Shown here: positions 6,915-36,204 of the stretch, piece by piece | Layout: each line of letters starts with the position of its first letter | Numbering within the stretch: the first letter of the stretch is position 1 | NCBI GenBank assembly: GCA_016930795.1 | Contig: JAFGFY010000113.1 | Coordinates: forward strand, 1-40,500 | DNA: 40,500 bases | DNA from: Deltaproteobacteria bacterium | GTDB taxonomy: Bacteria > Desulfobacterota > DSM-4660 > Desulfatiglandales > HGW-15 | Direction of reading: 5' to 3' | Notes under the pieces: generated by a model | What the model saw: only the letters and a program-made list of their open reading frames with translations | Databases searched by the model: none | What the model was told of the DNA's origin: nothing | Position numbers and translations under genes: made by a program

Positions 6915-7290
6915 AGACATGCCGGAAGGTGCTTTTTTCAGCCCTTTCCGACAGCAAATTGATACTCTCGCATAGAATCCATCAAATTAACCCAATCTCT
7001 ATATTCTCGCTAAAGAGGGTGAAGAATGGACCAATCGGGAGAGGGGTCTTTTTTGTTCGTACTGTGAAGGACTTATTCCTGTAACCACAAGATATTTGGC
7101 TATATCTTCCCCTGTAACCAAAGAAGCGGAGCTGTGTCTTCACTTTCACAGACTACCCCCCTCACCCAGAGACCCTTGAGCCCCCTTTTGCCCAAGGTTC
7201 TAGTATTCCATGAATCCACAACTCGAGGTATCCAACTTAATCTTTCAATCCTATTGCGCTTTGGTCTCTTTTGACCCTATAATCCCTTAA

Positions 7291-7852
<562 letters not shown>

Positions 7853-7869
<17 letters not shown>

Positions 7870-8374
7870 CACAAAGATTTGGCACTTCTCCCATGTTCTT
7901 CCCCGTTCAAAGATTGGCGCACGATGTAATATTGGACAAAATGTTGTCATCGGCCCGGACGTTTCTATCGGGACGAACTGCAATATCCAGAACAATGTCT
8001 CCGTTTATAAGGGTGTAACTCTGGAGGACGGTGTTTTTTGTGGTCCATCAATGGTCTTCACCAATGTCTACAATCCTCGAGCTGGACTCCGAAAGATGGA
8101 TCAGGCAAGACCTACACTGGTGAAAGAAGGGGCAACCCTAGGCGCCAACTCCACAATCATATGCGGGGTCACTATAGGTAAATATGCCTTTGTTGGTGCG
8201 GGTGCCCTAGTCCACAGAGATATCCCTGACTATGCCCTCGTTGTGGGAAATCCCGCTAAAAAAATCGGTTATGTCTGCCAATGTGGGGAACGCCTGCTCC
8301 ATGATCACAAATGTCCCGAATGTGGAAAAACCTATAACAAAACCCAGGAAGGCCTCGAACCAAGTCCAGATTAA
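7853..8374 (+). CDS. sugar N-acetyltransferase (WbpD type), N-terminally shortened
   Basis: A left-handed beta-helix acyltransferase of 173 residues. Hexapeptide repeats run from about residue 10 to 145 ([45 protein letters not shown]) with the family phrases [14 protein letters not shown] and [16 protein letters not shown] (as [16 protein letters not shown]). A C-terminal zinc-ribbon-like tail has CQCGE followed by CPECGK (four Cys). Known relatives acetylate the 3-amino group of UDP-amino-uronic acids. Relatives begin some 15-20 residues before the VGEGTKIW motif; here that motif comes at residue 3, and the only nearby start is TTG at 7853, inside the end of the broken dehydrogenase. No good ribosome site precedes it. 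It may be a remnant, although the catalytic body is intact. Confidence 0.75.
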
Positions 8375-8550
8375 GCCTTATTTCTAATCCCCTTTATCCT
8401 TTGATCCTCCTCATCCTTTGTCATAAAAAGAAGGAACAGATTTTTTGACATAACGCTTCTCCCAATATCTTGTGCCTAATGAGTCTATAACACTAAATAT
8501 AGGCATATAGGGTTTTTCCTTATCCAAAAAACAGGAATCTCGACATGATA

Positions 8551-8572
8551 AATGAGGGTTTCCCCGATTGAG
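8551..8572. promoter_or_regulatory. dyad motif, copy B
   Basis: AATGAGGGTTTCCCCGATTG resembles the copy at 6838-6860 and lies about 60 bases ahead of the helix-hairpin-helix gene at 8631. A looser AGGGTTTTTCCT occurs upstream at 8509-8520. The position fits control of the downstream gene. The NarL-type regulator encoded at 10158 is one possible binder, but that link is only proximity. Confidence 0.4.
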
Positions 8573-8630
8573 TCTCTCTAACGGAACAAGGTATGAGCAG
8601 AGTGGGGGGCTTGATGAAAGGAGGCGCGTT

Positions 8631-12242: not shown

Positions 12243-14222
12243 ATGTATCAAGGAAAAATCATAGAATTTATTGATCAAGGCAGATTTATATGCACCCTAT
12301 GCCTACAGGATAAAGGAACCAGGCTCCACCTGTTAACCCCACTCAACCGTGAGATCAATATCTCGCCCAAAAGGGCTCTTCTCTTCTCAAATGCGTCCCT
12401 AGACACCGGGATGCCCAGGGGAGAACTCTTGAACCAATTAAAAGAGATCGAGATACGGAGAAGGGATTTCCAGGAAGATGTCCAAGTCAAGGAACTGTGG
12501 GAATTGGTGCGGGATGGAGAGGAGCATTTTGACTATGTGGACCTTGCCCAACTCTGTTTTGGAAAAGAGATCACAGATGATCACATCTCCGCGCTGGTCA
12601 GGGCACTATTCGACGACAGACTCTATTTCAAGTTGAAGGAGGGTCGTTTTCTCCCCCATTCTGAAGAAATGGTGAATCAAATCATCAAGCAGAAGGAGGA
12701 GGAGGCTCGAAGGGAAACAAGGCTGAAAGAGGGGGGCGCTTGGCTGAGGAATCACGTACAGAATAAACCGACCCAACCCCCTTCTTGTAAGGATGAGATT
12801 ATTGACCTCCTTATCGAATTGGCCCTTTATGGAAAAGAGGCTTCAGACTTTAGGCATGGAAAGGACCTTCTCCTCAGGGCGGGGATAACGGACATTCAAA
12901 GGGTCAGGAGCCTCCTTGTCGATCTTGGTGTCTGGGGTGAGGATGAAAACCTCGAACTTCATCGTCTGAATATCAGCACCTCCTTTAGTGAAGACTTGCT
13001 GAATGAGTCAAAACAACTCATCGAAGTCGGCATCGAAGAGGCTCGGCGTGAGGACCTTCGAGATCTGTACACGTTCACCATTGACGGCCCTGACACCAAA
13101 GACTTTGATGACGCTCTGAGCATCCAAATTTCACCTGATTCTGTCCTCCTGGGTATTCATATAGCCGATGTCGCGGGAGTCATTCCTCCTGACAGTCTTC
13201 TCGACAAGGAGGCCTCACAACGGGGATCTTCCCTTTATCTTCCTCGTAACAGCTTTCACATGTTCCCGCAGAACCTTTCCGAGGATACCTTGAGTCTGAA
13301 GAAGGGCTATGATCGCCCCGCCATATCTCTCATGTGCCGCTTTGATAAAGAAGGCGATCTTTTAGACTACAGATTTGTACTGAGCGTTGTGAGGATCAGG
13401 CGTCAACTCACCTATGACGAGGTCAACGACCTATACAAAGAAGATGCTTTATTGAAACAGGCCTATGAATTGAGTCAAGAGTTGAGGAAGAAACGAATCG
13501 ACCAAGGAGCCCTTATCCTTTCCCTTCCCGATGTCTGGTTCACCATCCATCCCGATTCATCTATCTCTTTAGAAATGTCGGACCAGGAAACTCCCTCTCG
13601 AATGATGGTGGCTGAATTCATGATCCTATACAATTGGCTGGCAGCCAAACTCTGCCAGGAGCATGACATTCCGATCCTCTATAGAAGCCAGGATAAACCC
13701 AGCGAAGAGCTGACCGTTGGCGATGAAGGTTACCACTATTACGTCTTCAAACAGCGCCGCAAGCTCAGTCCTCTCATGATCGATACAGACGCCCGCTCCC
13801 ACGCGGGGCTAGGCCTGGATATGTATACCAATGTCACCTCGCCTATTAGGAGATACTTGGACCTGGTGGTTCAACGGCAGATGAGGCGTTATCTCTCAGG
13901 GGAATCTTATGTGTACAACAAAGAACAACTGCAAGAGATAAGGATGTCGGTTCAACCCTTATTGCGGACCCTTGAGACCATGAAAAGAGACCGTATTCGT
14001 TACTGGACACAAAAGTATCTCCTTTCTCATCTCGGAGAGAAGTTTCCCGCCCTGGTCCTGGATATCCTAAGAAACAGGTATCGAATGCTTTTGACGGACT
14101 TTCTGCTGGTGACGGAAGTGAAGAAAGAAAATGGCCAGGAATTTCTTCAGGGTCAGCAGATCACGGTAAAGATAAAAAAGAGCGATCCCTGGAATGACCT
14201 GTTGAGTTTAGAGTGTGAATAA
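12243..14222 (+). CDS. RNB-family exoribonuclease (RNase II/R-like)
   Basis: A 659-residue 3'-5' exoribonuclease. The catalytic RNB domain (about 270-570) begins with YTFTIDGPDTKDFDDALS, giving metal-binding D281, D287, D289 and D290, and ends with YTNVTSPIRRYLDLVVQRQM, which holds the conserved Arg cluster. The N-terminal 240 residues do not look like two cold-shock domains; they resemble the winged-helix arrangement recalled from cyanobacterial and Deinococcus RNase II proteins (for example FDYVDLAQLCFG). A short S1-like segment ends the protein. It would degrade or trim mRNA in the cytoplasm. The GAGG at 12228-12231 is about 11 nt before the ATG. The gene stands alone and converges on the M99 peptidase gene. 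Confidence 0.9.
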   Translation: MYQGKIIEFIDQGRFICTLCLQDKGTRLHLLTPLNREINISPKRALLFSNASLDTGMPRGELLNQLKEIEIRRRDFQEDVQVKELWELVRDGEEHFDYVDLAQLCFGKEITDDHISALVRALFDDRLYFKLKEGRFLPHSEEMVNQIIKQKEEEARRETRLKEGGAWLRNHVQNKPTQPPSCKDEIIDLLIELALYGKEASDFRHGKDLLLRAGITDIQRVRSLLVDLGVWGEDENLELHRLNISTSFSEDLLNESKQLIEVGIEEARREDLRDLYTFTIDGPDTKDFDDALSIQISPDSVLLGIHIADVAGVIPPDSLLDKEASQRGSSLYLPRNSFHMFPQNLSEDTLSLKKGYDRPAISLMCRFDKEGDLLDYRFVLSVVRIRRQLTYDEVNDLYKEDALLKQAYELSQELRKKRIDQGALILSLPDVWFTIHPDSSISLEMSDQETPSRMMVAEFMILYNWLAAKLCQEHDIPILYRSQDKPSEELTVGDEGYHYYVFKQRRKLSPLMIDTDARSHAGLGLDMYTNVTSPIRRYLDLVVQRQMRRYLSGESYVYNKEQLQEIRMSVQPLLRTLETMKRDRIRYWTQKYLLSHLGEKFPALVLDILRNRYRMLLTDFLLVTEVKKENGQEFLQGQQITVKIKKSDPWNDLLSLECE

Positions 14223-14225
14223 GGG

Positions 14226-14324
14226 CAAGGCGCACGGCACAAGGCACAAGGTGTAGGGTGTGAGGCATAGCGCATGGAGGTTGAGAAAAAGGTGGTTCTT
14301 CCTCGCCTTGCGCCGTGCGTCTTG
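14226..14324. repeat. inverted CTTGCGCC-type repeat between convergent genes
   Basis: The arm 14226-14244 pairs with 14306-14324 (17 of 19 identical to the reverse complement, one further G-T wobble), with 61 bases between. Both arms and the loop are built of variants of CCTTGYGCC, the same word that forms the tandem array at 17500-17548. It may serve as a two-way terminator between the ribonuclease and the M99 peptidase genes. Confidence 0.5.
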
Positions 14325-14337
14325 AGCCTTGCAGCTT

Positions 14338-16098
14338 TCAATCAGTTTGAATAAACACCTGGCCTAATACCAATGAACCCTTCTTCACCTGGACGGGATA
14401 ACGGCTATCTCCTTCCAAGTCACACAATGCCCTTAGTTCTCTCACTTCACCGGGCTTTAAAAGATGCTCATTGATTTTCAGGCAGATGTCATTCTCACTA
14501 TATAAATTCGTCTCTATCTCCTCCAGGCATATTCGATTGTCCATGGATAGGGACACCATATCCTCCGACCTCAGGCAGACATGACGGTGATCGTCTATCT
14601 TAAGAACCATATAATCCATTTTGGGAGGGACAAGCCTAACGATCATTCGGCCCAAAACACGATCACCCTCTGATGCGATGATTTCGTAGAGTTCCCCTTT
14701 TTTGCCCAAAGAGTATCGCGTGAGGAGACCTGCCTCCGTGTGAATGAGATACCCCCGGTCTTCGCCTGTGTTGTTCTTGAGATTGCCGACAAACCCCTTG
14801 AAATTGACCGTGATACATGATGGGTCCGCCGGGGAAGGCAGAATATACATGATCTTTAGATCTTCCCCCCTGACCAGATCAAGGGTCTCTCCATCAGCCA
14901 CGAGAACACGATATCCCTTTGTTTCAATCACAAAATACTCCACCCTTCTGGTCCGGATTGGTTGTCTATCTTGCCCCAGTCTGTTCTCTGAAACCTGAAC
15001 AGGAATTTCAGCAAAAACATCATTGTCCTTTCTCACAATGATACTCGTGTCTTCGAAAATGACAAACTCTCGGCGATAATCGTTCAGGTCGCCGTGTCCG
15101 AGAATATCGAGGCTTAATCCCCTTTCGTAGTTCGATTCGATATGGGAGATGTGAATGGCGTCACCAGCCTTCACTCGCAGGGTTTGATTTTGTTTGACCA
15201 CGATGGGAATTTGCCCGTTGAGGGAAACCACCAGATAGTCCAGGACAGGGGCCTCCAGTTCAAGCCCTGGGGATTCAGGGATAATCCCGAAGATTTCCTT
15301 GAACGCGTTGATAATGAGGTTATGATATCTCACCTTGAGGTCAATGGAGGGAAGGAACTTTGATGTTTCAACCCCAAAGGCGGGGATATGGTGGGTAGTG
15401 AGGGCGTAATATGTGGCCGAATTCCGCTGTTCACGGTGTGGGCTGTCCACGTCCTCTGTTCTTGTATTCATGAAATGGAATTTGTGAAGATCGTTTTGAA
15501 TATGGGGATTGACCTGACTGATGACCTTTTTGGCCGTCTCCTCCAGTTTGATGACTCTATCGGTCCCCGGAATCCTGTATTCCGCGCAATCTGCAATGAT
15601 GGACTGGCCAAAGCGGGTCGGATTTCGCCATTTGTCAATGTATTCGGGGTAATAATACCCTGATCCGTCATGGAGGTTCAGGAGATAATCACTTTCACTG
15701 ATCAACTCTTTCAGCTTGGTCACAATCTTGTCTTCCATGCTGCTGGAGGTATCCTCAGGGCTGAATTTCCTGTTCATGTCGCCGTTAGGGCCCCTTTGAT
15801 TAAGGATAATGGAGTAGAAATTGGCCCTCGGAACCACGATGAGGTTCCCTTTTTGAAGACTCATGTCGGCATAGAGGTCGGCGGAGAGGAACCCTCCCGG
15901 CTCGTTTCCTTGTATCCCGCCTATGAGCATCAAGGTCTTTCCAGGTTCTTTTCCGAAAATTTTGTATATGTTCAACTCATAGGCCGTGTTGGGAAAATAG
16001 ACGAGGCGCTCTCTCTTGGAGAAGGCCTGAGAAGGAAAAACGCATTGGAATAACAGGCTCATCCAGAGGCACAGAAAAAAGACTCTTCTGTCAGGCAT
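14338..16098 (-). CDS. M99-family D,L-carboxypeptidase, Csd4/Pgp1-like
   Basis: A predicted exported zinc peptidase of 586 residues. From ATG 16098 there is a signal peptide (MPDRRVFFLCLWMS..., likely cut after SQA at 23-25), and GGGGCGAGG precedes the start; the longer reading from 16170 overlaps the upstream gene. The catalytic domain (about 30-270) shows GGIQGNEPGGF with Q63 and E66, NLHDGSGYY with H143, and HIPAFGVETSK with E244. In Helicobacter Csd4 the zinc ligands are Gln, Glu and His, so Gln in place of His is normal for M99. About 330 C-terminal residues look beta-rich, as in Csd4. Csd4 and Campylobacter Pgp1 trim muramyl tripeptides and set helical shape. It follows the Csd6-like gene by 26 bases, so both probably share one message. 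Confidence 0.85.
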   Translation of the reverse strand: MPDRRVFFLCLWMSLLFQCVFPSQAFSKRERLVYFPNTAYELNIYKIFGKEPGKTLMLIGGIQGNEPGGFLSADLYADMSLQKGNLIVVPRANFYSIILNQRGPNGDMNRKFSPEDTSSSMEDKIVTKLKELISESDYLLNLHDGSGYYYPEYIDKWRNPTRFGQSIIADCAEYRIPGTDRVIKLEETAKKVISQVNPHIQNDLHKFHFMNTRTEDVDSPHREQRNSATYYALTTHHIPAFGVETSKFLPSIDLKVRYHNLIINAFKEIFGIIPESPGLELEAPVLDYLVVSLNGQIPIVVKQNQTLRVKAGDAIHISHIESNYERGLSLDILGHGDLNDYRREFVIFEDTSIIVRKDNDVFAEIPVQVSENRLGQDRQPIRTRRVEYFVIETKGYRVLVADGETLDLVRGEDLKIMYILPSPADPSCITVNFKGFVGNLKNNTGEDRGYLIHTEAGLLTRYSLGKKGELYEIIASEGDRVLGRMIVRLVPPKMDYMVLKIDDHRHVCLRSEDMVSLSMDNRICLEEIETNLYSENDICLKINEHLLKPGEVRELRALCDLEGDSRYPVQVKKGSLVLGQVFIQTD

Positions 16099-16124
16099 GG
16101 AACCTCGCCCCTTTAAGCCCGTCA

Positions 16125-17459
16125 CTAATCCCCTTGCATCGGCTGCCATTCCTCTTCCTTGATCCTCCAATCCTGCCCTTTTTTGACGACAACCAGATTT
16201 TTAATACCGTAGTCCTGATACGCATCGGCCTTATATATCTGTTTAAACCTGACCTTTGCCTCTCGATCGGAGGCAGGCAAGATCTCCAGGTCCGTGATAA
16301 CGATGTTTAAAGAACTGTATTTACGATTCAGCCTGTCTCTGTGGGTCTTCCATGCGCGCAAGTCCATTCCGCGAGAGGTGAATTCCGTGTCGTAGCACGA
16401 GATATACTCCACGAGATCCTTCTCTTCCCAGGCATCTTGCCATGCCAAAATAAATTGTCTTATTTCTTCCTGGATAGAGAAGTATGGGTCCTTGGGTGGC
16501 CCCCGCCTGAGCGCCTTCCTTTCGAAAAACTCTCCTACGATTTTCCACTCCTTACTGTTCTGTTGGAGATAAAGGCGCTTTTCACCCTCGCTCTGAAGCC
16601 TTTCGGTCTGATAGCGTTGGTCAAACTTGGCCAGAATGGTACTCCCGTTCTTGAGCAGCCAAAGATTCTCAATGTCCACCATAATCTGCTCATAACTCCT
16701 GGCAAGTCGTGCCTTGTATTCTTTATACTGGTTCCAGTCTCTTCCTCCCAAGGTAAAGCGCGGACTGTAAAACGACATGTATTGATCAACCATCTTGCCT
16801 TGCCAGGCCCTTCTCCAGTTTTCGACGATCTCCAACATCTCTCTTTTTTCCTTTTCCAGTTGGCTCCGTTCCACCATTTCGATCCGGGAGCATATGACGG
16901 CAGGCGTATCATACAATGTGATGAAAGAAGCAAGGTCTTCAATATGATGGTTTTCCAGGACGATACACCCATTTGAATCATAGGGCTTTAGAGGCTTGTC
17001 CGTGCCGTGAAACCAGATCCCGTACCCTCCGTTTCCTATTTTCTTGTCCATGGGATTGGGGTAATCAATGGGGAATGCCCTGACTCCATATATGGGGGCG
17101 AGATCCTTTTCGAGATAGGAGTGGGTGAAAAAATAGATTCCTTCAGGGGTTTTCTTGTCGTTTTGCCTCCCCTTCGGGCCGTCATTCTCTCCGGTGGAAC
17201 ACTGGTAGGTCCTGAGGGGGCTTAAGAGGTCCTTCCATTGATACACAAAGGTCTTTTGAACAGATTTGTCTACCAGGATCACATACTCAGAGCCTTGCGC
17301 CGGCCGATACAATAGCGGCGATGGGACCAGCCCTGACTCGAATGTCGATTGTCCCGAGGAATCAGCAGCGTAAGGATTAGTCCGCAACAGGCAAACCGAG
17401 ACGATCCAGACGAACAATAGCAGCCCAAATTCGGATGAGGTTATAAACCGCATTTTCAT
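16125..17459 (-). CDS. L,D-transpeptidase-fold protein with two NTF2-like domains, Csd6/Pgp2-like
   Basis: A predicted exported cell-wall enzyme of 444 residues. I chose ATG 17459 over GTG 17471 because GAGG lies about 11 nt before it; a signal peptide or anchor follows (FGLLLFVWIVSVCLL, then a likely cut at PYAA). The YkuD domain (about 55-195) has the catalytic motif HG...SNGCI, with H151 and C165. Two related NTF2-like segments follow, about 207-312 and 330-440: compare NWRRAWQGKMVDQYMSFY with AWQDAWEEKDLVEYISCY. Helicobacter Csd6, an L,D-carboxypeptidase, and Campylobacter Pgp2 have a YkuD-type domain plus one NTF2-like domain. The function here is either peptide trimming or cross-linking. 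It leads the Csd4-like gene in an operon. Confidence 0.87.
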   Translation of the reverse strand: MKMRFITSSEFGLLLFVWIVSVCLLRTNPYAADSSGQSTFESGLVPSPLLYRPAQGSEYVILVDKSVQKTFVYQWKDLLSPLRTYQCSTGENDGPKGRQNDKKTPEGIYFFTHSYLEKDLAPIYGVRAFPIDYPNPMDKKIGNGGYGIWFHGTDKPLKPYDSNGCIVLENHHIEDLASFITLYDTPAVICSRIEMVERSQLEKEKREMLEIVENWRRAWQGKMVDQYMSFYSPRFTLGGRDWNQYKEYKARLARSYEQIMVDIENLWLLKNGSTILAKFDQRYQTERLQSEGEKRLYLQQNSKEWKIVGEFFERKALRRGPPKDPYFSIQEEIRQFILAWQDAWEEKDLVEYISCYDTEFTSRGMDLRAWKTHRDRLNRKYSSLNIVITDLEILPASDREAKVRFKQIYKADAYQDYGIKNLVVVKKGQDWRIKEEEWQPMQGD

Positions 17460-17499
17460 GACTTGTCGCACCTCTTGCTTCTCTATTCTTTCTTCATCC

Positions 17500-17548
17500 T
17501 TACGCCTTACACCTTGCGTCTTGTACCTTGCGTCTTGTACCTTGCGCC
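17500..17548. repeat. tandem 14-mer repeat TTGCGTCTTGTACC
   Basis: Two exact copies of TTGCGTCTTGTACC are flanked by degenerate copies (TTACGCCTTACACC before, TTGCGCC after). The array lies between the Csd6-like gene and purB, both on the minus strand. The same words occur at 14226-14324. Confidence 0.7.
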
Positions 17549-17554
17549 TTTCTC

Positions 17555-18847
17555 TTAACCAAACACCCTCTTGAAAATATCATCCACATGTTTGAGATGG
17601 TAATCCAAGTCAAAAACGTCCTCCACCTCTTGCGCGGACACATGTTGCATAAGTTCCTTATCCTCCAGGAGAAGGGTCTTGAAATCTTTTCCCGTATCCC
17701 ACACCTTTAGGGCATTCCGTTGAACCATCTCATAGGCTGTATCCCGTTTTAGCCCGAGATCGGTCAACCGAATGAGGACCCTCTGAGAAAAGATCAGCCC
17801 CTTGAGTTTGTTCAGGTTCTCAAGCATCCGTTTGGGATGAACCCCAAGATTTTGGATGATCCCTGTGAGGCGCCGCAGCATGTAATCTGCGAGGATGGTA
17901 CTGTCAGGGCCGATGACCCTCTCCACCGAGGAATGGCTGATATCCCTTTCATGCCAGAGTGCCATGTTTTCCATGGCAGCGAGAGAATTGGTTCTGACCA
18001 GACGGGCAAGTCCTGAAATGTTTTCCGACCCAATGGGATTCTTCTTGTGGGGCATGGCCGAAGAACCTTTCTGTCCTTTTGCAAAGGCTTCCTCCGCCTC
18101 AAGGACCTCCGTCCGCTGAAGATGGCGAATCTCAATTGCGATCTTCTCCATAGTCCCGGCCAGGATGGCCAGGGCAGAGAAATACTCAGCGTGGCGATCA
18201 CGTTGTGTAATTTGAGTGGATACTTCTGCGGGCTTCAGACCCAGCTTCTCACATACATAGGCCTCAATCTTCGGAGAGATATTGGCAAAGGTCCCCACGG
18301 CCCCGGAAAGCTTTCCATAACTGATCACCTCAAGGGCATTTTCCAGCCTCTTGAGATTGCGTTTCATCTCCATATACCAGACGGCCAGCTTGAGTCCGAA
18401 TGTAATGGGCTCTGCATGAATGCCATGGGACCGCCCGATCATGACGGTATATTTGTGTTCAAGGGCCCTCTCTTTGATGATTTCCATAAACGTCTTTACA
18501 TCATCAATGATGACGGCCATGGCCTCCTTGAGCAAAAGTGCGAAGCTGGTGTCCAGGATGTCCGAAGAGGTCAATCCCTGGTGGATAAACCGCGAATCCG
18601 GTCCCACGTATTCCGCCACATTGTTGAGAAAGGCGATCACGTCATGCTTGGTCTCTTCCTCGATTTCCAGGATCCGCTCAACAGAAAAATTCGCTTTTTC
18701 CTTGATGGTGGCAAGGGCCTCCTTGGGGATTAGGCCTTCCTCGGCCATGGCCTCGCAGGCCAGGACCTCCACTTGAAGCCACTTGGCGAATCGATTCTCG
18801 TCTTCCCAGATTCGTCCCATCGCAGGGTGAGTGTATCGGCTAATCAT
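17555..18847 (-). CDS. purB: adenylosuccinate lyase
   Basis: This cytoplasmic enzyme cleaves fumarate from SAICAR and from adenylosuccinate in purine synthesis. It has 430 residues, the usual length for the short bacterial and archaeal-like form. Visible are the first conserved region with H68 in EEETKHDVIAF, the catalytic H141 in IGRSHGIHAEP, and the fumarase/aspartase signature GSSAMPHKKNP at 261-271, which carries the catalytic Ser. The C-terminal domain continues to KRVFG. The start is supported by GAGGGA about 6 nt before the ATG. It is transcribed away from the HAD gene; an AT-rich region at 18890-18950 probably holds its promoter. The tandem 14-mer array separates it from the Csd6-like gene. 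Confidence 0.97.
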   Translation of the reverse strand: MISRYTHPAMGRIWEDENRFAKWLQVEVLACEAMAEEGLIPKEALATIKEKANFSVERILEIEEETKHDVIAFLNNVAEYVGPDSRFIHQGLTSSDILDTSFALLLKEAMAVIIDDVKTFMEIIKERALEHKYTVMIGRSHGIHAEPITFGLKLAVWYMEMKRNLKRLENALEVISYGKLSGAVGTFANISPKIEAYVCEKLGLKPAEVSTQITQRDRHAEYFSALAILAGTMEKIAIEIRHLQRTEVLEAEEAFAKGQKGSSAMPHKKNPIGSENISGLARLVRTNSLAAMENMALWHERDISHSSVERVIGPDSTILADYMLRRLTGIIQNLGVHPKRMLENLNKLKGLIFSQRVLIRLTDLGLKRDTAYEMVQRNALKVWDTGKDFKTLLLEDKELMQHVSAQEVEDVFDLDYHLKHVDDIFKRVFG

Positions 18848-22255: not shown

Positions 22256-23164
22256 ATGCTTCGCAAGAAGATCACCATTATCTTTCTTCCAGATGCTTCC
22301 AGCCGGGTGAAGCAAATCAGAATTCCTCAGACGCTTCTCCTGGGTTTCCTCCTTGCTATCCTTCTACTTGCATTTGTTCTCACCTGGGGTCTCATGGACT
22401 ATCGGGCCGTAAAAGCAAAGGTCCCCAAACTTGCGCGGCTTGAGGAGGAAAATTCCCAGCAAAAGGTCCAGATTGCCTCCCTGACAGATAGGATTGATCG
22501 AATCAACGGAAGACTGATCGAATTGAATGAGTTTGATCAGAAACTTAAGATTATGGTCAACCTGGAAACCGAGGAAGAGAACAGCCAATTTCTGGGTATT
22601 GGGGGTTCGGACTCCACCTTGCTCGACCCGGGTTACACCATTGAAAAGGCACATGAAAGACTGGTCACTCTAATGCATCAGTCCCTTGACAATCTCGATA
22701 CCGCCATATCGATTCAGATGAACGAAAAGGAAGAGCTCTACAAGTTTCTTGAAAATCAAAAGAACTTGCTTGCCCATACACCCTCCATATGGCCCACCAG
22801 GGGGTGGCTCAGTTCAGATTTTGGAAAACGGATTTCTCCTTTCACAAACGAAGAGGAATTTCACAAAGGGATTGATATCAGCACACGCATGAATACGCCT
22901 ATCGTTGCGCCGGCAGATGGTCTTGTTTCCTTAACCGGAAAGGACTATTTCATGGGAAATATGGTGATGATCAATCATGGCTATGATCTGAAGACGAGAT
23001 ATGGGCATATGGCAAAGATCCTGGTCAAAAAAGGCGAATATGTAAAACGGGGCCAAGAGATCGGTCTGGTGGGAAATACCGGCCGCAGCACAGGGCCCCA
23101 TTTGCACTACGAAGTCTATTTAAACAGCCTTCCCGTAAACCCCCGTCGTTACATCCTCAACTAG
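22256..23164 (+). CDS. membrane-anchored M23 (LytM) family peptidase
   Basis: A 302-residue cell-envelope protein that should act in the periplasm. A basic start is followed by one membrane segment (about 26-46, LLLGFLLAILLLAFVLTWGL), then a coiled coil (about 55-110), a linker and the LytM domain (about 180-300). Zinc and catalytic residues are present: H203 and D207 in FHKGIDIS, H251 in RYGHMAK, and H282 and H284 in GPHLHYEV. An active endopeptidase cutting peptidoglycan cross-links is therefore plausible, unlike the degenerate EnvC/NlpD activators. AAAGGG lies about 6 nt before the ATG. A hairpin with a weak T-rich tail follows at 23391-23419, so it probably has its own transcript. Confidence 0.93.
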   Translation: MLRKKITIIFLPDASSRVKQIRIPQTLLLGFLLAILLLAFVLTWGLMDYRAVKAKVPKLARLEEENSQQKVQIASLTDRIDRINGRLIELNEFDQKLKIMVNLETEEENSQFLGIGGSDSTLLDPGYTIEKAHERLVTLMHQSLDNLDTAISIQMNEKEELYKFLENQKNLLAHTPSIWPTRGWLSSDFGKRISPFTNEEEFHKGIDISTRMNTPIVAPADGLVSLTGKDYFMGNMVMINHGYDLKTRYGHMAKILVKKGEYVKRGQEIGLVGNTGRSTGPHLHYEVYLNSLPVNPRRYILN

Positions 23165-32776: not shown

Positions 32777-33097
32777 ATCAAATTCCTTTCAGGAGTCATT
32801 TGCCCACATCTGAATCCAACATGGCCAAAAAGGATTTCATGAGAAATCCCATGATAAAGCAGTAAGTGGTTGGCATCCGAGTTGAATGAGATCAATTATA
32901 AGCATTGGATCTGGTTTCAGGTAAAAGGATGCGCCCAAAAATAGCCTATGGGGGTAAAAAGGAGAGAATCCCCAAGCCGTTAGAAATACATCAACAATGA
33001 AAACAAAGTCAAGCCCTGAAGGCAAATCTCCTTTTTTTGATTGCCAAATATTCGAAATATGTTATTGTATTTGTTTTTTTATAGTAAGCTTGTTCTT
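32777..33097. other. divergent intergenic region, fusA / xerC
   Basis: No gene or RNA is recognised. The right end is AT-rich (33030-33090) and carries TATAGT at 33080-33085, a good -10, but no -35 at proper spacing; TTGATT with TGTTAT further left is an alternative. The region should hold both promoters. Confidence 0.4.
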
Positions 33098-34030
33098 ATG
33101 AAGAAAGTCCGGTTTTTCGATTTCATAGACTCCTTTATTGATGATCTGATATCTCTGAAAGGCTACTCTGATCATACCGCCAAGAGTTATCGGATCGACC
33201 TGGAACAATTCTCGAGTTTTTTGTTTGAAAAACAGGATTTATCCGGAAAAGGGGAGAGCGCTCCAGAGTTGGAGTCCATTGATTTCCTCGTCATTAGGGA
33301 ATACTTGGGCAGGCTGTATGGCCGCTATAGTCGAACGTCCATAGCCCGCAAACTCTCGACGATTCGATCCTTTTTCTATTTCCTTGAACGAAAAGGTCTG
33401 TTCAAGGGCAATCCTGCGGCCGACATCTCCACGCCGAAACAGGAAAAGTATATTCCCAACCATCTTCCCGTGGACGAGATGTTTAGACTCCTGGACGGAC
33501 CGGACAAGGAAAAACCCCTTGGACTAAGGGATTTGGCGATATTGGAGACGCTCTATTCCTGTGGCATCCGCGTCAGCGAACTCTCAGGTCTCAATGTGTC
33601 AAGTATTGATTTTGAGCAACGCCTGGTCAGGGTGGTGGGAAAAGGGAACAAGGAAAGGATTGTTCCCATTGGAAAAAAGGCCTTGCAAGCCGTTAATGAA
33701 TACATTGAGAAGACCGGCTCTTTGAGAAAAAAGAGCGGAAAGCATTTTGAAAACACACCCCTTTTTTTGAACTCGAGAGGGGGGCGTCTCACTGCTCGTA
33801 GTATTGAAAGGATGGTCTCGAAGTATGCAAAGAGGAGCAGTCTTATGACAGAGGTCACTCCCCATTCCTTGAGGCATACTTTTGCCACCCATCTCCTAGA
33901 TGGCGGAGCAGACTTGAGATCGGTTCAGGAACTCTTGGGGCACGCAAGCCTCTCCACCACCCAGAAATACACTCATGTCAGCCTTGAACGGCTCATGCAG
34001 GTCTATGACAAGGCCCATCCCAGGAGCTGA
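33098..34030 (+). CDS. xerC: tyrosine recombinase XerC-like
   Basis: A site-specific recombinase resolving chromosome dimers at a dif site. The 310-residue protein has an N-terminal SAM-like domain (about 1-95; YSDHTAKSYRIDLEQF, TSIARKLSTIRSFFYFLE) and a catalytic domain with R158 in GIRVSEL, H256 and R259 in HSLRHTFATH, H282 in LGHASLSTT and the nucleophile Y291 in QKYTHV. ATG 33098 was chosen over the upstream TTG 33041 because family homology begins there, although no strong ribosome site is seen. The order xerC-hslV-hslU matches the codV-codW-codX arrangement known in Firmicutes and many other bacteria, which supports this assignment over a phage integrase. Confidence 0.93.
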   Translation: MKKVRFFDFIDSFIDDLISLKGYSDHTAKSYRIDLEQFSSFLFEKQDLSGKGESAPELESIDFLVIREYLGRLYGRYSRTSIARKLSTIRSFFYFLERKGLFKGNPAADISTPKQEKYIPNHLPVDEMFRLLDGPDKEKPLGLRDLAILETLYSCGIRVSELSGLNVSSIDFEQRLVRVVGKGNKERIVPIGKKALQAVNEYIEKTGSLRKKSGKHFENTPLFLNSRGGRLTARSIERMVSKYAKRSSLMTEVTPHSLRHTFATHLLDGGADLRSVQELLGHASLSTTQKYTHVSLERLMQVYDKAHPRS

Positions 34031-34203: not shown

Positions 34204-34770
34204 ATGCATTCACATCAGAACATTAAGGCCACAACCATTCTTGCGGTCCGAAAAGGCGGAAGGACTGTCATGGCCGCAGACGGCCAGGTGAGTCTGGGCG
34301 AAACAATCATGAAACACAAGGCCAACAAGTTGAGATTTATGTACCAGGATCGGGTCCTGATCGGATTTGCCGGAGCCGCGGCAGACGCCTTTAACCTGTT
34401 CGAAAAACTGGAATCAAAACTGGAGAAATTCAATGGGAACTTGACCCGTGCGGCCGTAGAGCTTGCCAAGGACTGGCGAACGGACAAAATCTTGAGGAAA
34501 TTGGAGGCCCTGCTCCTTGCCTCGGACGCTGAGCATACATTTATCATTTCAGGCACCGGGGATGTCATCGGGCCTGACGAACCCGTGGCCGCCATCGGCT
34601 CAGGTGGACCCTATGCCCTTTCAGCCGCTCGCGCCTTGGTGGAGCATTCTGATCTTGATGCCCCCACAATAGCGCTGGAAGCCATGAAGATTGCCGCCTC
34701 AATCTGTCTCTACACCAATGAGCAAATCATGATCCAAGAGATCGAAAAACAGCATGACCCAGAAGAATAG
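34204..34770 (+). CDS. hslV: ATP-dependent protease subunit HslV
   Basis: The proteolytic core of the HslUV protease, a double hexamer with an N-terminal Thr nucleophile. The 188-residue protein has [19 protein letters not shown] starting at T10, so the mature chain should begin after a nine-residue leader (MHSHQNIKA); E. coli HslV has only the initiator Met there. Other family text includes [28 protein letters not shown] and [15 protein letters not shown]. The weak ribosome site GAAAGAGAT lies about 8 nt before the ATG. It is followed 24 bases later by hslU, its ATPase partner, and preceded by xerC. Confidence 0.97.
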
Positions 34771-34794
34771 GGACTTATAACGAGGTGATCAAGG

Positions 34795-36204
34795 ATGACA
34801 TCACGCCGAAAAGGGAATAATCATTTTATGAAGATCCTGACGCCCAGAGAGATTGTGTCTGAGCTTGACAAGTATATCATCGGGCAAGCACATGCGAAGC
34901 GTTCCGTAGCCATTGCTTTAAGAAACAGGTGGCGCAGACAACAAGTCCCCCCGGATCTCCGAGACGAAATCGCCCCTAAAAACATCATCATGATGGGGCC
35001 CACCGGTGTTGGAAAAACTGAAATAGCCCGACGCCTGGCCCGGCTTGCGGAATCGCCTTTTCTCAAAGTGGAGGCCACAAAGTTCACGGAGGTGGGGTAT
35101 GTGGGCCGAGACGTAGAGTCTATGATTCGAGATCTCACAGAACTCGCTGTGAGTATGGCAAAAAAGAAAGAACAAGAGAATGTGAAAGTGAAGGCCCATG
35201 AACTAGCCGAGGAAAGACTCCTGGACATCCTTCTCCCTAAAAGAAGAGAGGATTCTCGCGAAGAAGAAGGGGGAAGTGAAAAAGAAAAGGTACTCGAAGT
35301 GGTGAAGGCGGAAAAACCTGAAAGTAAGTCAACCCGTGAAAAATTGAGACGGTTATTGAGGGACGGAAAACTGAATGCCCGCAACGTGGAAATAGAGACC
35401 ACCAATCAAAACATACCTATGGTGGAGGTCTTTTCTAACACAGGAATGGAGGAAATCGAATTCAACATCAGAGAGGTTTTCGGGAATGTCTTCCCTTCGA
35501 AGAAAAAAAGGAGGCTGGTTAAGATCCCGGAAGCATTGGAAATCCTTTTTCAAGAGGAATCCCAGCGTCTTATTGACATGGATAGCGTGATCGACGAGGC
35601 CGTCCGAATGACAGAACAAAATGGCATCATATTTCTTGATGAGCTGGATAAGATCGCCGGCAACGAATCCAGACATGGTCCGGATGTATCTCGAGAGGGC
35701 GTACAAAGAGATCTTCTCCCCATTGTGGAGGGCTCCACGGTTACAACCAAATACGGCATGGTGAAGACAGATCATATTCTTTTTATTGCAGCCGGGGCCT
35801 TTAATGCCAGCAAGCCTTCGGACCTCTTACCGGAGCTCCAGGGAAGATTTCCTATCAGGGTGGAGCTCGATTCTCTGACTCAAGAGGATTTTCTTCGTAT
35901 CCTGTCAGAACCCAAAAATGCCCTGATCACCCAATATAAGGCGCTCCTTGAAACAGAGGGTATTGATCTGCAATTCGAAAAATCAGCCATCGAAGAGATT
36001 GCTTCCATGGCCAGCAAGGTCAATGAACGCATGGAAAACATAGGCGCACGCCGTCTGCACACGGTAATGGAGAAACTCTTGGATGAGATATCCTTTGACG
36101 CTCCGGATATGTCGACAGAAAAAGTGATTATTGACAAGAAGTATGTACTGAAAAAATTGACAGATATTCTTGAAGATGAAAATCTGAGTAGATATATCCT
36201 GTAA
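34795..36204 (+). CDS. hslU: ATP-dependent protease ATPase subunit HslU
   Basis: An AAA+ unfoldase that feeds proteins to HslV. The 469-residue protein has the N-terminal phrase [17 protein letters not shown], Walker A GPTGVGKT at 68-75, the pore loop [19 protein letters not shown], Walker [12 protein letters not shown], and [16 protein letters not shown]. The I domain (about 115-230) is highly charged (Glu/Lys-rich). It ends with ENLSRYIL, the conserved tail that docks into HslV. Start ATG 34795 was preferred over ATG 34828 because GAGGTGA lies about 7 nt before it; the extra 11 residues are not conserved, so the shorter start remains possible. It is followed by argB after 36 bases. Confidence 0.97.

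Follow-up and report, generated by a model that had tools for sequence, protein, structure and literature searches.

A csd6-M99 gene pair as the remaining core of a candidate bactofilin-guided muropeptide-trimming module in Desulfobacterota

Genes for two predicted peptidoglycan-trimming enzymes, related to Csd6 and Csd4 of Helicobacter, stand next to each other on a deltaproteobacterial contig, and the locus raises the question of whether such a compact pair is peculiar to its host or belongs to a more general system. The stretch analysed, hereafter the window, comprises positions 1 to 40,500 of contig JAFGFY010000113.1, part of a 4.2-Mb draft genome in 285 contigs that is 94% complete. The csd6-M99 pair proved to be the enzymatic core of a widespread and apparently undescribed cluster, most likely shape-related, which normally also encodes a third protein, here called c3, and loss of c3 gave rise to the compact pair. 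We give a probability of roughly 0.6 to the reading in which the cluster trims muropeptides under the guidance of bactofilin, c3 serving as an adaptor comparable to Csd5, and is reduced in the window to its enzymes.

What restricts trimming enzymes to one side of a curved or helical cell is an open question. Csd5 has been proposed for this role (PMC3844677), and the authors of the work on the Bdellovibrio enzyme Bd1075 knew of no mechanism that would direct it to a single lateral wall (PMC8938487). A conserved cluster that brings both trimming enzymes together with bactofilin and a probable transmembrane adaptor, whose hairpin is of a known bactofilin-binding type and whose periplasmic domain is fused to the enzyme in some species, renders the question testable outside pathogens. 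The most valuable part of the system is c3, the very component that is missing from the window.

The csd6-M99 cluster and the loss of c3

Both genes of the pair are intact open reading frames (ORFs) on one strand, 26 bases apart, at the coordinates given in a first-pass annotation of the sequence.

16125..17459, (-) strand: csd6-like gene, ATG start, 444 aa, intact ORF; candidate exported YkuD-type L,D-carboxypeptidase with two NTF2 domains
14338..16098, (-) strand: gene for a predicted M99 (Csd4/Pgp1-type) D,L-carboxypeptidase, ATG start, 586 aa, intact ORF, export-type N-terminus
16099..16170, (-) strand: site of c3 (about 270 aa) in relatives, of which a start-like TTG at 16170 and the 26-base gap are left

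The gap itself (16099-16124) carries a ribosome-binding-like AAAGGGGCGAGG, and the TTG at 16170 overlaps the 3' end of the csd6-like gene.

A set of 395 genomes drawn from the host phylum was surveyed for the three genes. Of these, 73 carry M99 genes, 97 carry Cds6_C genes and 67 gave c3 matches, a figure that includes cross-matches to M23 peptidases. A Cds6_C gene lies upstream of M99, on the same strand and within 1.5 kb, in 48 of the 57 non-canonical M99 loci (19 families), and a c3 match lies between the two in 33 of these 48 (14 families). The first-pass annotation had described a linked module for this host; by the survey, such linkage is no peculiarity of the host and occurs commonly in the phylum. 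Since each gene is present in one or two copies among thousands, and the same gene order is kept in many relatives, the linkage is far beyond chance. Canonical M99 genes, by comparison, were found in 17 loci (>200 bits), none of them beside a Cds6_C gene. The order in relatives is purB, csd6-like, c3 and M99, followed by a convergent RNB gene; the csd6-like gene and c3 overlap, as c3 and M99 usually do, by 10-80 bases.

In the survey, the other 15 linked loci showed no c3 match between the two genes. Eleven of them have a gap of 0.8-1.5 kb between the enzyme genes, and one of these (L070) carries a recognised c3, while three more gaps that were inspected (L069, L071 and L072) each hold a c3-like ORF encoding a hairpin, a transmembrane segment and a coiled coil, though without a profile match. 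Directly adjacent csd6-like and M99 genes were found in only four loci, the window included. Loci L067 and L068 are two-gene arrangements of another kind: each csd6-like protein has a single NTF2 domain, and M99 is shorter. A single-sequence scan of genome contigs yielded a sister metagenome-assembled genome as its sole match. No description of c3 or of the cluster was found in a literature search, which did not reach subscription papers or preprints.

Within the host order, 20 genomes, the window genome among them, carry paired-type M99. A Cds6_C gene is present in all 20, and c3 in 19 of them, the window genome alone lacking it. The window M99 is nested in a c3-bearing clade of its own family (support 98/89) and the absence of c3 is therefore a loss. 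Compactness thus does not hold as the original state of the module that had been annotated here, whereas the functional link between its enzymes does, given that Csd6 produces the substrate of Csd4 (PMC3844677). A search of the whole host assembly recovered neither c3 nor a fragment of it, and likewise none between the csd6-like and M99 genes, while two bactofilins and an LmdC-type M23 peptidase are kept in the genome. Where relatives begin c3, and in the frame that they use for it, TTG 16170 starts the long ORF of the M99 gene, the first residues of which are MEDQGRGM.... This extension of the ORF was considered as a real vestige of c3 and rejected: the letters conserved in it fall in the csd6 3' end, which is read in another frame, and csd6 conservation alone could explain them. 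It was used as position evidence only.

Other purB-RNB loci have lost other members of the cluster. M99 is lost in L064, and both enzymes are lost, leaving c3 alone, in L052, L054, L058 and L060-L062. One genome (G029) carries the enzyme pair elsewhere without c3 (L048), and c3 alone at purB (L052). Given these solitary occurrences, the association of c3 with these enzymes is not exclusive, and where c3 stands alone between purB and the RNB gene it must have another role or partner.

c3 and its links to bactofilin and Csd6-like enzymes

c3 proteins are about 250-280 aa long. They begin with M1-E2 and comprise a short cytoplasmic segment containing LTIMI..VGKVRSFKIS, one transmembrane segment, a coiled coil, and a periplasmic beta-domain in which G, P, F, R and Y residues are conserved. 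Searches of Pfam, NCBIfam and PHROGs gave no match over cut-off, no SH3 match was obtained at E up to 1, and the c3 profile retrieved only coiled-coil, transmembrane and antibody noise from PDB sequences. A relationship of the c3 beta-domain to the beta-repeats of the M99 protein (see below) was also considered and discarded, the comparison showing no similarity.

A relative was found for the N-terminus. Weak matches of the c3 profile over the surveyed genomes, outside true c3 genes, were mostly to LmdC-type M23 peptidases, which share the succession of hairpin, transmembrane segment and coiled coil, and the window encodes one such protein outside the operon, whose N-terminal module is the one common to c3:

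22256..23164, (+) strand: LmdC-type M23 peptidase with hairpin, transmembrane segment, coiled coil and M23 domain

An independent set of 26 M23 N-termini was gathered from relatives by means of this window protein and not via c3. The c3 N-terminus aligned with them over hairpin and transmembrane segment (hhalign 96%, E 3.9e-9), and the hairpin columns alone aligned in register (E 5e-4). With a biased M23 set, partly picked by c3 similarity, the hairpin gave E 4e-6 against a best value of 0.007 in 20 column shuffles. On sequence comparison, the c3 N-terminus is thus homologous to that of LmdC-type M23 peptidases. A single-sequence model of c3 places hairpin strands at 30-35 and 41-46 ahead of a long helix, at low confidence (mean predicted local distance difference test, pLDDT, 39). 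The hairpin of LmdC binds bactofilin and thereby recruits the peptidase (PMC10945521). c3 resembles the LmdC-BacA system in its hairpin, transmembrane and coiled-coil start and in having a bactofilin gene nearby in many families, but it differs in lacking a peptidase domain, its periplasmic part being instead a beta-domain that is also seen fused to Csd6-type enzymes.

These fusions, in which the c3 beta-domain forms the C-terminus of a csd6-like protein, were found in L153:4271-5812 (E 2e-18), L158:5621-7354 (E 5e-22) and L159:3678-5306 (E 1e-20), L158 encoding a separate c3 besides the fusion. They are a sign that the periplasmic part of c3 works with the csd6-like enzyme.

In 16 loci from eight families (L048, L071, L074, L076, L083, L084, L091 and L153-L161), csd6, c3 or M99 has a bactofilin gene as a same-strand neighbour. 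The total rises to 17 loci and nine families with L066 (f67; 6928-7818 and 8161-8616), where bactofilin adjoins c3 without the enzymes. Four of the 17 (L153-L156) had been fetched for a bactofilin match; among distant module loci not picked for bactofilin, 10 of 18 have it. In GTDB family f44 (L154-L156) the genes form csd6-c3-M99-M23-bactofilin rows, or the same without M99, the five-gene rows being L154:2799-8137 and L155:2789-8116. Bactofilin is encoded in 32 of the 33 genomes with the csd6-c3-M99 triad, against 245 of 395 overall (Fisher p 2e-6, uncorrected for descent). None of the purB-linked loci L031-L047 includes a bactofilin gene. At L083:5621-6760, c3 lies next to a bactofilin gene in a locus from which csd6 and M99 are missing.

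The trimming enzymes, a proposed mechanism and its alternatives

The domains of the two enzymes, all encoded on the (-) strand, are as follows.

16893..17285, (-) strand: YkuD catalytic domain, residues 59-189, with H151, G152 and C165
16530..16838, (-) strand: NTF2-like domain 1 (Cds6_C), profile match
16152..16463, (-) strand: NTF2-like domain 2 (Cds6_C), profile match, second copy
15289..15942, (-) strand: M99 catalytic domain with Q63/E66/H143/E244
14983..15258, (-) strand: first beta-repeat in the C-terminal part of the M99 protein (hhalign against repeat 3, E 1e-9)
14623..14949, (-) strand: second C-terminal beta-repeat, containing VNFKGFVGN..NNTGEDRGY, which is almost invariant (against repeat 3, E 6e-8)
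14341..14622, (-) strand: C-terminal beta-repeat 3, absent from some relatives, e.g., L033, L042 and L044

The active-site residues and domains that had been annotated for both proteins were borne out by profile searches and alignment, and hydrophobic, signal-like N-termini (Kyte-Doolittle maxima of 1.95 and 1.61) mark both as putatively exported. The csd6-like protein matches YkuD (PF03734, E 4.8e-18) and, in two stretches, the Cds6_C NTF2 family (PF24125, E 3.1e-39), and so has the architecture of the Csd6/Pgp2/Bd1075 group with two NTF2 copies, compared with one in Csd6, Pgp2 and Bd1075. H151 and C165 align with the GIW.H and GC motifs of Csd6 and Bd1075, and HG...C is present in 34 of the 36 csd6-like proteins compared, the exceptions being HS in L080 and a degenerate motif in the L068 copy. 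The label of Csd6-like stands for the family but not for the closest solved homologue, which is Bd1075 (7O21, E 7e-46), ahead of Csd6 (4XZZ, 7e-20) and Pgp2 (6XJ6, 5e-17). Bd1075, an L,D-carboxypeptidase, gives Bdellovibrio its curvature, and its NTF2 domain directs it to the convex face (PMC8938487); the presence of such shape enzymes outside Campylobacterota had thus already been published for one member. Bd1075 resembles the window protein as an exported YkuD-NTF2 protein of the L,D-carboxypeptidase type, but is monocistronic, whereas the window gene adjoins M99. At L080:6089-8494, near purB, a csd6-like ORF of 801 aa (about 350 aa extra) carries the HS in place of HG, and M99 in that family is canonical and located away from it.

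The M99 protein matches Peptidase_M99 (PF17033) at 134 bits, against a curated cut-off of 27, and the Csd4 structure 4q6m at E 8e-32. Its Q63, E66, H143 and E244, corresponding to Gln/Glu/His metal ligands and the general base Glu, align with the Csd4 motifs GIQGDEPGG, LHLHDGGGYY and NEASKELP and are invariant in a 16-sequence M99 alignment. The Csd4-like label holds at the level of the M99 family but not for the canonical Csd4-like clade, since in a tree that has several long branches and includes no Campylobacterota sequence the protein joins the paired-type M99 and is separate from the canonical sequences of L049, L078, L079 and L081. Canonical M99 of the same phylum score 205-305 bits against PF17033, and the window protein differs further from Csd4 and Pgp1 by its three C-terminal beta-repeats, which are mutually homologous (hhalign E 1e-9 to 6e-5). 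A structure model from a two-row alignment had a mean pLDDT of 40. With Helicobacter Csd4/Csd6 and Campylobacter Pgp1/Pgp2 the window pair shares both enzyme families with their catalytic residues and, presumably, the same consecutive steps, and differs in that its genes are linked in an operon-like row.

On the preferred reading of a guided trimming module, the Csd6/Bd1075-like enzyme would remove D-Ala from tetrapeptides in the periplasm, giving tripeptides, from which the M99 enzyme would remove meso-diaminopimelic acid to give dipeptides; both activities are predicted from sequence. Csd6 likewise produces the tripeptide that Csd4 trims, acting upstream of it in one pathway (PMC3844677), and Pgp2 produces the substrate of Pgp1 (PMC3961634). 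The cytoplasmic LmdC-like beta-hairpin of c3 would, by analogy, attach to a filament of bactofilin, the membrane helix together with the coiled coil would span the inner membrane, and the periplasmic beta-domain would hold the trimming enzymes, such that trimming is restricted to chosen wall zones, as proposed for Helicobacter Csd5. Loss of Csd5 straightens Helicobacter with muropeptides unchanged, and Csd5 has been proposed to localise Csd4 and Csd6 (PMC3844677); it spans the membrane, binds the bactofilin CcmA and peptidoglycan (PMC9507126) and binds Csd4 with a Kd (dissociation constant) of about 4.5 uM (PMC4220969). The likeness to c3 is one of layout only, namely a short cytoplasmic N-terminus, one transmembrane segment and a periplasmic beta-domain, and c3 differs in lacking SH3 or any other accepted Pfam match and in having a coiled coil and an LmdC-type N-terminus. 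By layout and context c3 may nevertheless fit a Csd5-like role, with an LmdC-type hook instead. It is a more tentative proposal that c3 founds an undescribed family of adaptors which, spanning the inner membrane, link carboxypeptidases of the Csd6/Csd4 type with bactofilin filaments and place trimming at chosen wall zones; the window lineage would then be a natural deletion of c3 with the enzymes retained. With c3 apparently deleted between two intact enzyme genes, the window enzymes are probably untethered, acting through their NTF2 and beta-repeat domains, or may borrow another tether, and the window would offer a natural experiment in the removal of the adaptor alone. An effect of the module on cell shape, like the tethering, is predicted.

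Several observations weigh against this reading. In the window's own order bactofilin genes lie elsewhere, and stand beside the module in L048 only. Among 61 relatives, c3 persists without a Cds6_C gene in 12 and without a paired M99 in 21; this survival of c3 beyond the enzymes in many genomes weighs against a dedicated role. The hairpin-only similarity to the independently chosen M23 proteins (E 5e-4) is modest, and the predicted structure of c3 is poor. The same occurrences of c3 without enzymes, and of enzymes without c3, would suit a general wall-turnover or recycling pair that trims stem peptides over the whole sacculus with no role in curvature, c3 being merely a co-transcribed envelope protein, and a shape phenotype is known for distant relatives only. 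We consider this unlikely in view of the repeated clustering with bactofilin, the fusion of the c3 beta-domain to csd6, the LmdC-like c3 N-terminus and the fact that Bd1075, the nearest relative of solved structure, is a curvature enzyme whose NTF2 domain directs its targeting.

Two further alternatives concern parts of the guided-module reading. The YkuD protein could be an L,D-transpeptidase (forming 3,3 cross-links or attaching lipoproteins) or a DpaA-like amidase instead of an L,D-carboxypeptidase, as its domain type would allow and as a weak NCBIfam LdtF/DpaA match (27 bits vs a cut-off of 365) might hint. Moreover, the HG-X12-C spacer of 12 residues is shorter than in the motif quoted for Csd6, H(S/G/D)X14-19C (PMC4599014), but that of Bd1075 (H141, C156), at 13, is also below 14 (PMC8938487), and the combined YkuD and Cds6_C layout, with top matches that are all carboxypeptidases (Bd1075, Csd6 and Pgp2), makes this assignment very improbable. 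As to the missing gene, in a draft genome of this fragmentation and completeness the apparent loss of c3 might conceivably stem from mis-assembly or a strain mixture, the true locus being an ordinary csd6-c3-M99 triad, and all 19 other relatives with paired M99 do keep c3. This is quite unlikely given the clean junction, the completeness of both flanking ORFs, an M99 gene with its own ATG and ribosome-binding-like site, and the absence of c3 fragments elsewhere in the assembly.

Neighbouring features of the window

The genes on either side of the pair are conserved neighbours.

17555..18847, (-) strand: purB (adenylosuccinate lyase), upstream neighbour, kept across the order
12243..14222, (+) strand: RNase II-type (RNB) gene, convergent, downstream of the M99 gene, conserved neighbour

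Degenerate heptamer repeats (CCTTGCG/CCTTGYGYCYTG) flank the csd6-M99 pair at 14226-14324 and 17498-17551. Both stretches are intergenic and the repeats are confined to them, with eight matches against 1.3 expected in 40.5 kb; they possibly represent an intergenic element or a terminator. Further along the window, at 34204-36204, genes for an HslV-like proteasome-type peptidase and an HslU-like AAA protein, ordinary in character, adjoin a phage-integrase-type recombinase gene (33041-34030).

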